DNA from: Treponema sp. J25
GTDB lineage: Bacteria; Spirochaetota; Spirochaetia; Treponematales; Breznakiellaceae
Length of the DNA stretch: 62,605 bases
Assembly (NCBI RefSeq): GCF_004343725.1
Contig: NZ_PTQW01000017.1
Coordinates: 1-62,605, forward strand
Direction of reading: 5' to 3'
The first letter of the stretch is position 1; every line of letters starts with the position of its first letter. Below, piece after piece: positions 35,656-40,805 of the stretch. The position numbers and the translations under genes were made by a program. The notes under the pieces were generated by a model. The model saw only the letters and a program-made list of their open reading frames with translations, was not told the DNA's origin and ran no database searches.

Positions 35656-35998
35656 TATGAAGCCCTTCAATCTTTTTTATAATTTCGAAGCCCTCTTGAA
35701 TACTGTGATCCTCATGAAACCGAAGTCGGGGGGTCTGCCGAATATGGAGGGCCAGGTTAAGCTGGGATTGAATAAACCCCGCCGCATGTTGGAGGCCCGC
35801 AATTCCCCGATGTAAGGCCCGTTCTGACTTAAAAGTTGAAACATATACATCCGCGTAGGAAAGATCCCGGGACACCTCCACCCGGGTTATACTGAGTAAG
35901 GTATCTACCCGGGGGTCCTTTATCTTTCCCGATACGATAAGTTCTCCAATTTTCTGTTGAATGTATTGATTTATCCGTTCTAATCGATGCTCAGCCAT
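35639..35998 (-). CDS. rbfA: Ribosome-binding factor A
   Basis: A 119-residue KH-like protein that binds the 30S subunit and helps mature the 5' end of 16S rRNA. The N-terminus [27 protein letters not shown], the [16 protein letters not shown] stretch and [14 protein letters not shown] are typical. It overlaps infB by 8 bases and truB by about 17, within the conserved nusA-infB-rbfA-truB order. Confidence 0.97.
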
Positions 35999-38759
35999 TC
36001 TCCTGCCCTAATTTTCTTGCCACCTGGACAACCTCAAACACCTCAAACTGATCTCCCACCTGGATATCATTGAAATTCTCTAAGCCGATACCGCATTCAT
36101 AACCGGCCGCCACTTCTCGTACATCATCTTTGAATCGTTTAAGAGAGGCTATTTTACCGGTATGAATAACGATACCTTCGCGGATAACGTTGACACTGGC
36201 TGTCCGTTTCACGGTCCCTGATAGGACATAACAACCGGCCACCGTACCCACCTTTGGCACCTTGAAGGTTTCTCGCACTTCCACCATCGCAATGACTTCC
36301 TCTTTAGTATCGGGTTTGAGGAGTCCTTCCATGGCTTGCTGAATTTCTTCGACCGCTTTGTAAATGATGTTATACTTACGGATTTCTACTTTTTCTTGGT
36401 CCGCCAAGGCCTTCGCCTGCGGAGTAGGCCGTACGTTAAAACCAATAATAATGGCGTTTGAAGCGGCCGCGAGGTCCACATCTCCTTCGTTAATTGCCCC
36501 CGGGAGAGCCTGAATAACATTGAGCCGAACCTCCTTGGTAGAAAGTTTTTCCAGGCTTGAACGGAGGGCTTCTACCGATCCCTGGACATCTCCCTTAATG
36601 ATTACCTTAAGTTCCTTTATTTCCCCATCGGAGATGGTATCATACAGGTTGTCCAGCGTAATTTTCTTGATGTTCTTCGCATCCTCGAACCGCTTCAGTT
36701 CCTGCCGTTTGGCAGAGATGCTCCGGGCGGTTCGTTCGTCCTCTACCACTTGCAGAGGATCCCCCGCGTTGGGAATTCCATCGAAACCAAGGACTTCTAC
36801 CGGCATGGAAGGAGTGGCCTCTTCAATACGAAGCCCCTTATCGTTAAAGAGGGCCCGTACTTTTCCAGCCCACACCCCTGCCACAAAATTGTCTCCTACT
36901 CGGAGGGTTCCTCGCTGCACGATAACGGTAGCCACGATTCCCCGTCCATGATCGATCCGGGATTCAAGAATTTTACCTTCCGCCCGACAGGTATAATTGG
37001 CTTTCAGTTCCAGAATTTCCGCCTGGAGCAAAATGGCATCGATAAGTTTATCGATACCCAGCTTTTTCAGGGCAGAAATCTCAACAAACATGGTCTGTCC
37101 ACCCCACTCTTCGGGCATGAGTCCCAATTCGGAAAGCTGGGTCTTTACCCTATCGGGGTTCGCTTCGGGCTTATCAATCTTATTGATTGCTACGATAATG
37201 GGAACCTTTGCTTCCTTTGCGTGGTTTAATGCCTCGATTGTCTGAGGCATCACCCCATCGTCCGCCGCTACCACGAGAACCACGATATCCGTAACCTGGG
37301 CTCCTCGGGCCCGCATCCGGGTAAAGGCTTCGTGTCCCGGCGTATCAAGGAAGGTAATGGCCCCATGGGGGGTTTCTACCATATAGGCACCGATATGCTG
37401 AGTAATGCCCCCGAATTCGGTGGACGCCACATCACTACTTCGTATGGCATCGAGGAGCTTGGTCTTCCCATGGTCCACATGGCCCATCACCGTCACAATA
37501 GGAGGACGGGGTTTTAGGTCTTCCTGCCTATCCGCTTCGCTTTCGATGACCGTTTCATCGTAGAGACTAACAACTTTCACCTCACAGCCATATTCTGAGG
37601 CAAGAATCACCGCCGTTTCCGCATCGATCTGTTGATTGATGGTAACCATCATCCCCATGGACATGAGTTTCTGAATGAGATCGGAGGCTTTCAGGTTCAT
37701 CTTTTTAGCCAGTTCGGCTACCGAAATAACCTCGGTAATCTCAATCGATTTGGGGACTGGATTCGTAACGGTGGTCGTTTTTTTCTTAAGCTGGAGGAGT
37801 TTTTCCTCCATCTCCTCTTCTTTCCGTTGATAGACCGTCTTCTTTGCCTTAAAGGTCTTTTTTGCCGCCGGTTTCCCTTCCATGACAGGAACCACCGGTG
37901 CACCGAGGGGCCGGCCGGGGGCTCCGGGCCGAGGACCACCACCCATTCTTCCCGGCATTCCAGGTCTTTGACCACTCCGACTCTGAGGGGCCCCTCGTCC
38001 TCCGCTCCCCGAACCGTCTCGATTCCCTTCCCGGGGTACGCCAGTTCCGGGGGCATTCCGATCCCGATTGGGGAAACTACCTGCCGGAGCCCCCGGCCGG
38101 CCCGGGGTTCCGCTCCTTCCACCGGGAGCCCCCCGTTGGGTCCCAACGGGTCGTCCCCCTACTCGACCAGCTGCCGCCGCCGGTCGCTGCGGAAAAGGAG
38201 GAGCGTTAGTTGAGGAAGAGGTCCCCGGGGAAGAACTCGTCGGCCGTGCGGCTGGTTTTTCAGCACTTCCCCCGCTCTGCGAACCTTCAGAAGACTTTTC
38301 CACAGCTTTTGATTCTTCCTGAGGTATCGGTGCTTCATGCTTTGGCTTTTCCTGTTTACCTGCGGGAGTCCCTACCGGTTTTCCTCCCACGACACCTGCC
38401 GCTACGGCTGGTCGCTGTTGCACAGGCAGAACAGAAACCGTCTTTTTAGTATCCCCCGAATCCTGAGAAGAGGCGCCCTCCCCCTTCTCCTGGGCCGTCG
38501 TATGAACCACCACCTTTGGCTGAGGCTTTTTTGAAACCGTTCCCCCTGCGTCGGCACTGCCTTGAGCACTTCCTGCCGCCCCTGGTTGGGATGCACCAGA
38601 GGGAGGGGTCTTTTTTTTCACTACCACTACTTTCCGTTTTTCGCTTCCCTCAGAGCTTCCTTCCTTTGGAGATGGATTCCCCTCAGGAGATGCGGCCGAT
38701 TTAGCGTGTTTAATCAATTCTACCTTTGGTTTATTTGTCGTATCAAATTCCTCAGCCAT
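35991..38759 (-). CDS. infB: Translation initiation factor IF-2 with long low-complexity N-domain
   Basis: A 922-residue GTPase that brings initiator tRNA to the 30S subunit. Residues about 1-300 are a disordered region rich in Gly, Pro, Ser, Ala, Arg and Lys with repeated blocks such as [16 protein letters not shown]. An IF2-N domain follows (about 345-395, [21 protein letters not shown]), then the GTPase domain with GHVDHGKT (about residues 425-432), DTPGHEAF and NKID, and the EF-Tu-like and C2 fMet-tRNA binding domains (C-terminal [14 protein letters not shown]). AAAGGTG precedes the ATG. The N-region raises local GC content and produces many false antisense frames. Confidence 0.97.
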
Positions 38760-38768
38760 ATATCACCT

Positions 38769-40238
38769 TTATTCTTCATCCTCATATTCAAAGCTTAACC
38801 CTACCCCACAGTTCGGACAGGTGGTCATATCGAGGGTTATCTTTGCACCACATTCAGGACATTCATATTCCTCTTCTTCTTCCGAAGAAGCTACCTCTTC
38901 TTGATCTTCCCTTTCCTCCTCAGGGGCGGGCTCTTCTTCTACCACAACCTCAACATTTTCGTCGATAAGCCGCTGCAGTTCTTCAATCTGTTGTGGAGAG
39001 ATTCCCTGCAAGTTCTGTAGTTGTTCGTCGGTTAACTCAAGGAAATCTTCGATGTATTCTATCCCGTTCTGCAGGAGAAGGTCCACCACCACCGGGTCGA
39101 CACCGGGCAATTCTGCGATGCGGCTGATATCTTCTTCGTACCCTTCTTCTTCTCCGAAGAGCTGCGACACCGCCTTGCGGGACTCGGAATAGATATCCAT
39201 GCTCTCATACTGGGATTCGGTTTTTACATCGATGTTCCAGTCGACAAGACGATTTGCAAGCCGTACGTTCAAGCCCTGTTTACCAATGGCAAGGGAAAGC
39301 TGGGAATCGGCCACAATCGCCAGGGCTTGCCGCTTTGCCTCATCCAGGATAATAACATCCTTGACCTCTGCCGGAGAGAGGGCATTCTTTATGAACTTTC
39401 GGGGATCCGTTTCGTACTTTAATATATCAACCTTTTCGCCTTCCAGTTCCTTGATGATAGTCTGAATCCGTACCCCCTTAAGACCCACACAGGCTCCCAC
39501 AGGGTCTACCTCTTCTCGTTTGGAGTATACCGCAATTTTGGTTCGATAGCCCGGCTCCCGGACAATCTTATGAATTTCCACAGTTTTATCATAAATTTCA
39601 GGAACCTCTAGCTCCAGGATAGCCCGCACAAATTCGGTATGCGTCCGGGAAAGCACGATCTGAAGCCCCGAGGGTCCCTTGGTTACTTCCACAATCAGGG
39701 CCTTGATTCTGTCGTTCGGTCGATACACTTCTCGAGGGGATTGGTATTTTTTGGGAAGGATCCCTTCGGCCTTGCCGAGATCAACATAAATCGTTCCATT
39801 CCGTTCCCGTTGGTAGTACCCAATGATAATCTCGCCCACTTTATCTTTAAATTCCGAATAGAGACTATCCTTTTGAATCTCCCGGATTGATTGATGGGCT
39901 GTTTGTTTTGCGCTCTGAACCGCCCCCCGATCGAATTCTTTAGGGTCTATCTCTATGAGAATTTCATCTCCTATCTCGGCTTCTGGATCGAGTTGGCGAG
40001 CCTCCTCTAAAGTTATCTCCGTAACAGGATCTTCGAGCTCTTCTACAATCTGTTTTTTTGCATAGATAGCGACTTCCCGATTATCATCACTAAAGCGAAT
40101 GACCGCATTCTCCGTGGTCCCAAATTTGCGTTTATATGCCGCTAAGAGGGTGTTTTCTATAGTTTTAAGTACTAACTCTTCCGAGAGTCCCCGATCCTGT
40201 ACCAACTGACGGATCGCTTCTGACATATCTGTTGCCAT
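38769..40238 (-). CDS. nusA: NusA with added C-terminal acidic linker and zinc ribbon
   Basis: A 489-residue RNA polymerase-binding factor for pausing, termination and antitermination. Domains in order: N-terminal polymerase-binding domain (1-125), S1 (about 130-200), KH1 and KH2 (about 205-350, with VGACVGLKGVRIQTIIKEL and SLAIGKQGLNVRLANRL), and a helix-hairpin-helix unit (about 375-430, LPGVDPVVVDLLLQNGIEYIEDFLEL). A Glu-rich linker (435-458) and a four-Cys zinc ribbon follow, with C460, C463, C474 and C477. That ribbon is not part of classical NusA. AGGAGG lies 10 bases before the ATG. It overlaps rimP by one base. Confidence 0.96.
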   Translation of the reverse strand: MATDMSEAIRQLVQDRGLSEELVLKTIENTLLAAYKRKFGTTENAVIRFSDDNREVAIYAKKQIVEELEDPVTEITLEEARQLDPEAEIGDEILIEIDPKEFDRGAVQSAKQTAHQSIREIQKDSLYSEFKDKVGEIIIGYYQRERNGTIYVDLGKAEGILPKKYQSPREVYRPNDRIKALIVEVTKGPSGLQIVLSRTHTEFVRAILELEVPEIYDKTVEIHKIVREPGYRTKIAVYSKREEVDPVGACVGLKGVRIQTIIKELEGEKVDILKYETDPRKFIKNALSPAEVKDVIILDEAKRQALAIVADSQLSLAIGKQGLNVRLANRLVDWNIDVKTESQYESMDIYSESRKAVSQLFGEEEGYEEDISRIAELPGVDPVVVDLLLQNGIEYIEDFLELTDEQLQNLQGISPQQIEELQRLIDENVEVVVEEEPAPEEEREDQEEVASSEEEEEYECPECGAKITLDMTTCPNCGVGLSFEYEDEE

Positions 40239-40705
40239 TAGTTTGCAACCTCCTGAGAATGATCTAAACGGGCCTTGATGATGTTTTCATAGGGAATTTC
40301 CATCAGTTCTCCCTTTTTCCGTAACACAAGATGGGTAGTGTCGGCCCTTGCGATAACCCCTCCACACCAGTCGTTCGTATTCTGAAGATAACAGCGGACC
40401 CCCTTTCCCACATACAGAGGAAATTCGGAAGCATCCTTTATAGATCGATTGATGCCTGGCGACAGCACTTCGAGGTATACCGACTCACCGGGGAACGCCA
40501 GTTCGACCCGGGGAATAATGGCCCGGTGCACCCGGGAACAGTCATCAATACCTACCGATCCCTCTGTTTTGCTAATAATCACCTGCACCGCCGTTTTTCC
40601 CTTTTGGTGATGCACTTCCACGTCCACGAGCAACAGCCCCAGTCCCTGCACCACCGTATTGAGGGAGGCATAAAGGCTATCCCTTTCTTTTATGGTATAC
40701 GTCAC
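40238..40705 (-). CDS. rimP: Ribosome maturation factor RimP
   Basis: A 155-residue factor for 30S subunit maturation. The family stretches are visible: GLGLLLVDVEVHHQKGKTAVQVIISK, SVGIDDCSRVHRAIIP, and LEVLSPGINRSIKDASEFPLYVGKGVRCYLQ (usual EVSSPGLDRPL-like motif). The start is GTG at 40705 with AGGTGGAG upstream. It is the first gene of the long leftward operon. The start codon lies only 12 bases after the U-run of an intrinsic terminator. Confidence 0.93.
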   Translation of the reverse strand: MTYTIKERDSLYASLNTVVQGLGLLLVDVEVHHQKGKTAVQVIISKTEGSVGIDDCSRVHRAIIPRVELAFPGESVYLEVLSPGINRSIKDASEFPLYVGKGVRCYLQNTNDWCGGVIARADTTHLVLRKKGELMEIPYENIIKARLDHSQEVAN

Positions 40706-40717
40706 TACTCCACCTAC

Positions 40718-40749
40718 AAAAAAGGAGTCGCTTGCACGACTCCTTTTTT
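40718..40749 (-). terminator. Leader terminator (putative attenuator) of the rimP-nusA-infB operon
   Basis: GGAGTCG (40724-40730) pairs with CGACTCC (40737-40743) over a six-base loop, flanked by A6 (40718-40723) and T6 (40744-40749), which could also pair. On the minus strand the U-run ends 12 bases before the rimP GTG. It lies downstream of the operon promoter at 40777-40805, so it would stop the operon's own transcript unless read through. Confidence 0.85.
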
Positions 40750-40776
40750 CTATCCAAAATCTTTTATCGTGATCTT

Positions 40777-40805
40777 ACTCTATCCTTTCTCTCATGCTTT
40801 GTCAA
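40777..40805 (-). promoter_or_regulatory. Promoter of the rimP operon
   Basis: On the minus strand: perfect -35 TTGACA (40800-40805), 17-base spacer, -10 TAGAGT (40777-40782, 4 of 6). Transcription should start near 40770, about 27 bases before the leader hairpin. It sits just downstream of the comF-type stop codon. Confidence 0.7.

Follow-up and report, generated by a model that had tools for sequence, protein, structure and literature searches.

The rimP-nusA-infB operon of Treponema sp. J25 is preceded by a promoter, a short leader and an intrinsic terminator. This element is likely to be a transcription attenuator of the nusA operon, with NusA itself the most likely regulator. The signal is conserved across the spirochaetes and remains at nusA in genomes whose neighbouring gene has been lost or moved, from which we conclude that the element probably enables the cell to adjust its own level of NusA.

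The window, i.e. the entire 62,605-nucleotide stretch of DNA that was analysed, contains 13 colinear genes that run from position 40705 down to 25225 and are separated by tiny gaps or overlaps. Their order is rimP, nusA, infB, rbfA, truB, ribF, rpsO, pnp, a gene for an M16 peptidase, two genes for LptF/G-like permeases, tgt and a gene for a HEAT-repeat protein; the gene names were assigned by reading the translations. The features of the leader region and of the first three genes are collected in Table 1. The preliminary description, made from the same DNA, had placed a TTGACA-17-TAGAGT promoter in front of a hairpin that begins 27 nt downstream of the −10 box and had given 12 nt between its U tract and the GTG start codon of rimP at 40705. 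All of these assignments were confirmed. Ten of the 12 promoter positions match the consensus, and transcription is predicted from the position of the −10 box to start at about 40770 on the minus strand. Folding of the hairpin yielded a z score of −4.4, and none of 200 shuffled sequences was equally stable. A pattern-based terminator scan of the window did not flag the hairpin at 40749–40718 because A-T pairs of the stem consume the U tract. On the plus strand, A6 precedes and T6 follows the near-palindromic terminator, which may therefore also stop plus-strand transcription.

Table 1. Features at the head of the rimP-nusA-infB operon (positions refer to the window).
Feature	Position	Strand	Description
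Promoter	40777..40805	minus	−35 TTGACA 40805-40800; 17-nt spacer; −10 TAGAGT 40782-40777
Leader RNA, 5' part	40750..40771	minus	Predicted start of transcription (~40770) to base of stem, placed by the −10 box; candidate antiterminator strand CACGAU 40771-40766, GAUUUU further 3'
Intrinsic terminator	40718..40749	minus	14-bp hairpin AAAAAAGGAGTCGT-GCAA-GCGACTCCTTTTTT: stem AAAAAAGGAGTCGT 40749-40736, loop GCAA 40735-40732, arm GCGACTCCTTTTTT 40731-40718; U6 tract 40723-40718
Ribosome-binding site of rimP	40708..40715	minus	AGGTGGAG, directly 3' of the U tract; read from the sequence
rimP (operon gene 1)	40238..40705	minus	RimP_N PF02576, 53.6 bits, E 8e-14
nusA	38769..40238	minus	C-terminal zinc-ribbon-like CPEC..CPNC motif; translation, homologues
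infB (IF2; operon gene 3)	35991..38759	minus	Translation

We gathered rimP loci from the family and from the phylum and inspected the DNA upstream of them. Using a strict rule (TTGACA-type promoter plus intrinsic terminator), the promoter–leader–terminator unit was identified at 75 of the 92 family loci. In the rest of the phylum a terminator was found within 130 nt of the rimP start at 83 of 99 loci, and 72 of the 99 also contained a promoter-like site; this promoter score is the best match in the region and hence lenient, and the background was scored alike. The background consisted of 364 genes from the window and from 20 stretches (400 kb) of five relatives. Six of these genes had a comparable terminator between −100 and +25, and none combined it with a strong promoter before the terminator. 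The TTGACA hexamer and the 17-nt spacer were conserved in nearly all relatives, irrespective of the upstream gene. Start sites were predicted throughout this survey, and many of the surveyed genomes are incomplete.

Other lineages of the phylum contained their own stems in the same position, such as GAGTCG..CGACTC, GGACTCG..CGGGTC in many genomes of family f3, and GAGAGTGG..CCACTCTC in f31, f39 and others. The element was absent from a few genomes, including the 1.14-Mb genome G045 from a Treponema-like family. No terminator is present ahead of rimP in G045 (L051), an apparent loss of the attenuator. In family f4 (L037, L045, L049 and L052) the terminator is situated about 140–220 nt ahead of the rimP start, compared to 0–70 nt elsewhere. 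An A-rich sequence resembling AAAAAAAACTTGAAATT precedes the leaders of the more distant lineages f31, f39 and f20 (L182–L206), in which the promoter type apparently differs from TTGACA.

Covariation of the hairpin was assessed with an alignment of 41 family leaders. Across the 12-pair stem, 93.5% of the cells were paired and 24 cells were double-changed, values that were not reached in any of 500 shuffles. Of 35 relatives searched with a covariance model built from the family (R1), 28 gave a match to the element at E ≤ 1. The strong matches corresponded to the head of the operon, and no second site in any of these genomes scored comparably. The model also recovered further family members beyond the strict-rule set; bulged stems, which the rule-based terminator finder misses, were among the structures recovered.

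The position of the element was then compared with those of rimP and nusA, assignment to the nusA transcription unit being made by genome position alone. In genome G006 (L270) the R1 match is located directly before the GTG codon that starts NusA (MATDMSEAIHQL..), and rimP was not found. The same arrangement was observed in G150 (L268) and in G180 (L273), the latter from another family. These three assemblies are incomplete and rimP may be unassembled; the gene upstream of nusA is not rimP in any of them. In the five genomes of genus g18 (L297, L294, L300, L301 and L303; G017, G088, G117, G140 and G167) rimP is separated from nusA, lying about 9 kb away on the same contig in G117 and on another contig in the other four. 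In G088, G117, G140 and G167 the promoter, 5' region and terminator are all present about 20 nt before nusA, and in G017 the terminator alone precedes nusA at a contig edge. The full unit is also found before nusA in G157, in which no rimP was detected. The covariance model identified no element at the relocated rimP genes of G017, G088, G140 and G167; the G017 region was also read directly. The genes upstream of the nusA-linked unit are unrelated ones, encoding an oxidoreductase in G006 and ABC-type proteins in G150 and G157. With each lineage counted once, these cases amount to about four evolutionary events, and the outcome was identical every time. In several family genomes neither rimP nor nusA gave a match, which probably reflects assembly gaps rather than losses. 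Judged by these gene arrangements, the element tracks nusA and not rimP. Conservation and covariation therefore lend strong support to the earlier proposal that the leader is an attenuator of the nusA operon, and the strongest support comes from the retention of the element at nusA after loss or relocation of rimP.

The preliminary description had also suggested that the extra zinc ribbon of NusA might be used in the regulatory loop, and this part found no support. Two f29 genomes and G180 (f21) encode a NusA that lacks the CxxC-N-CxxC ribbon, and all three genomes contain the leader. The leader thus does not need the ribbon as a sensor, and the two vary independently of each other. Among the loci L268–L289, the C-terminal CxxC-N-CxxC motif is present in f1, f13, f22, f24 and f33, and absent from f14, f18, f29, f42 and one of the two f21 genomes.

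The comparison with nusA autoregulation elsewhere, which had been drawn at the outset, proved apt. The rimP-leader (Naville & Gautheret 2010) has been described as the most ubiquitous bacterial attenuator, NusA feedback has been proposed for it, and its general form has no visible antiterminator (PMC2965389). Like the rimP-leader (RF01770), in which an intrinsic terminator precedes the first gene of rimP-nusA-infB by 4–130 nt, the window has its terminator 12 nt from this gene and a large aptamer is absent. It differs in that the conserved GGGc(...)gCCC stem was not found, the window stem being GGAGTCG..CGACTCC with the core GAGTCG..CGACTC. A GGGC..GCCC stem occurs in several relatives, e.g. 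GGGCCGTTCAGACGGCCC in G012. At the RF01770 gathering score there was no match in the window, and 0 of 40 relatives were above the cut-off. As neither the motif nor the score identified it, we placed the leader outside RF01770 and regard it, from its sequence, as a divergent spirochaete variant that would work like the rimP-leader. Unlike the general rimP-leader, elements of the window type have a candidate antiterminator at the 5' end, and they also occur directly before nusA without rimP. Other Rfam families gave no match in the window, and weak matches were rejected as chance. A riboswitch, a T-box or an r-protein leader was likewise not indicated, as no large conserved structure was found upstream of the terminator (the median distance between the −10 box and the stem was 30 nt in the survey of rimP loci) and no Rfam match was obtained.

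In B. subtilis, the nusA operon (ylxS-nusA) is reportedly controlled by NusA-dependent attenuation without antiterminator structures, as Mondal et al. are said to have described in 2016. The B. subtilis substrates of NusA are mostly suboptimal terminators. In both cases the untranslated region ahead of the operon contains a terminator that is likely to serve as a NusA feedback valve, but that of the spirochaete leader is strong and could face competition from another helix. The spirochaete leader is also shorter, about 50–60 nt compared to 180 nt in B. subtilis (PMC2965389). The rimP-nusA-infB operon of S. agalactiae (gbs0413-0418) is preceded by a single transcription start site from which both a short terminated RNA (+31) and a long mRNA originate, and NusA feedback was proposed for it as well (PMC4448216); this Gram-positive leader was mapped by RNA-seq, whereas the spirochaete leader is predicted from sequence. 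In the E. coli metY-rimP-nusA-infB operon, the leader terminators t1 and t2 are located ahead of rimP, and the operon is under NusA control and responds to cold stress (PMC6511841). The E. coli leader has the tRNA gene metY upstream and contains RNase III sites and more than one promoter; the spirochaete leader showed none of these features.

The 5' end of the leader RNA has the potential to compete with the terminator. In much of the family, GACAGUCGAAGAUUC is conserved at the expected start of transcription and is complementary to GRGUC-G-UUCG of the terminator. Base pairing of the 5' end with the terminator's 5' arm and loop would involve GUCGAA/UUCGRC and GAUUC/GRGUC and leave one G bulged, so that the competing helix could arise before synthesis of the terminator 3' arm. 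The corresponding partners in the window would be CACGAU and, within the hairpin, GUCGUG, the anti-state having a predicted energy of −5.2 kcal/mol, and in family f3 a 5' GAAC co-occurs with GUUC loops. In counts that ignore relatedness, 81.8% of the cells of the antiterminator pairing were paired compared to 26–62% in slid controls, and 15 cells were double-changed compared to 8.5 in shuffles, with 0 of 500 shuffles reaching this value. Duplexes between leader and hairpin also outperformed between-genus swaps (p 0.0004–0.005, not corrected for relatedness). Significance was not reached when the swaps were limited to the most similar pairs of the family (p 0.05–0.26), nor in the comparison with dinucleotide-shuffled family leaders, which gave a mean z of −0.4 to −0.6, with −0.28 for the control. 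At equilibrium the terminator always prevailed over the antiterminator, the full leader folding at −13 to −22 kcal/mol with U tracts of U6–U8. From these data we consider the 5'-end antiterminator a candidate whose chances are close to, and slightly below, even.

The mechanism that we favour is as follows. RNA polymerase would initiate at TTGACA-17-TAGAGT and synthesize a leader of about 50 nt before encountering a strong intrinsic terminator just upstream of the first gene, such that the read-through fraction alone would express rimP-nusA-infB and the remainder of the operon. High levels of NusA would slow polymerase and favour the terminator hairpin, low levels would result in read-through, and the NusA level would be kept steady. 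Many leaders of the family also begin with ~14 nt that could base-pair with the terminator's 5' arm and loop and thereby form a helix earlier than the terminator itself; this competing helix is a candidate timer or antiterminator for NusA-modulated pausing. A fuller version, which we put forward tentatively, is that spirochaetes possess a minimal attenuator with two states: the extreme 5' end of the RNA would antiterminate a terminator one helix away, and NusA would pick the helix through polymerase timing. In this version the 5' end would have co-evolved with the arm of the terminator separately in each lineage, and the device would move together with nusA. One point against NusA as the regulator is that the terminator looks strong by itself, as judged from the folding energies above (−13 to −22 kcal/mol), whereas in B. 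subtilis it is mostly weak terminators that depend on NusA.

Several other explanations were considered. The hairpin could be a mere 3' terminator of comF (in mutS-comF), since it is situated about 70 nt beyond the comF stop codon, with rimP being transcribed from elsewhere and the promoter match arising by chance; promoter-like matches are indeed common in the region (22 found, 19.8 expected). However, the position of the unit is unchanged next to unrelated upstream genes (comF-like, oxidoreductase and ABC-type), in almost all genomes TTGACA is interposed between the hairpin and the upstream gene, and just 12 nt separate the U tract from the start codon in the window. Since the unit does not depend on which gene lies upstream, this very improbable reading was rejected. 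Feedback by RimP, the first gene product, is a hypothesis mentioned previously (PMC2965389) that would account for the element being mostly directly before rimP. It is disfavoured by the relocated rimP genes, which lack the element, and by the persistence of the element at nusA where rimP is missing or elsewhere, such that we give RimP almost no chance of being the regulator.

The presence of a strong terminator in nearly all members and the absence of a ligand-binding domain would also be expected of an unregulated attenuator, in which a fixed read-through fraction sets the level of expression or insulates the operon. We consider this unlikely, as the conserved stem core and RNA 5' end exceed the needs of an insulator. 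Moreover, the same operon of B. subtilis is reported to be feedback-controlled by NusA. NusA feedback also acts on this operon in E. coli (PMC6511841). A further possibility, which we regard as conceivable though doubtful, is a two-state RNA switch with genuine antitermination by the 5' end, governed not by NusA but by another signal (cold-shock proteins, a ribosomal or RNA-binding protein, the speed of transcription or the NTP level). The complementarity of the conserved 5' end to the terminator, and the GAAC sequences that accompany GUUC loops in f3, are consistent with such a switch, and a precedent from E. coli, cold-stress induction of the operon together with Csp antiterminators, is described in PMC6511841 and in its reference 69. 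However, the covariation is weak once similar genomes are paired, the per-sequence energy is unexceptional, a large aptamer would not fit, and a leader ORF is absent.

As far as we have checked, three points are new: how widely spirochaetes carry the element, its association with nusA rather than rimP, and the candidate antiterminator at the RNA 5' end. At about 50 nt, the leaders are short enough for base-by-base testing in vitro, and the candidate antiterminator yields a clear prediction with respect to compensatory mutations. Which gene the rimP-leader serves is hard to tell, as rimP and nusA are nearly always found together. The spirochaetes in which rimP is missing or has moved provide evidence for a loop centred on NusA and against feedback by RimP.
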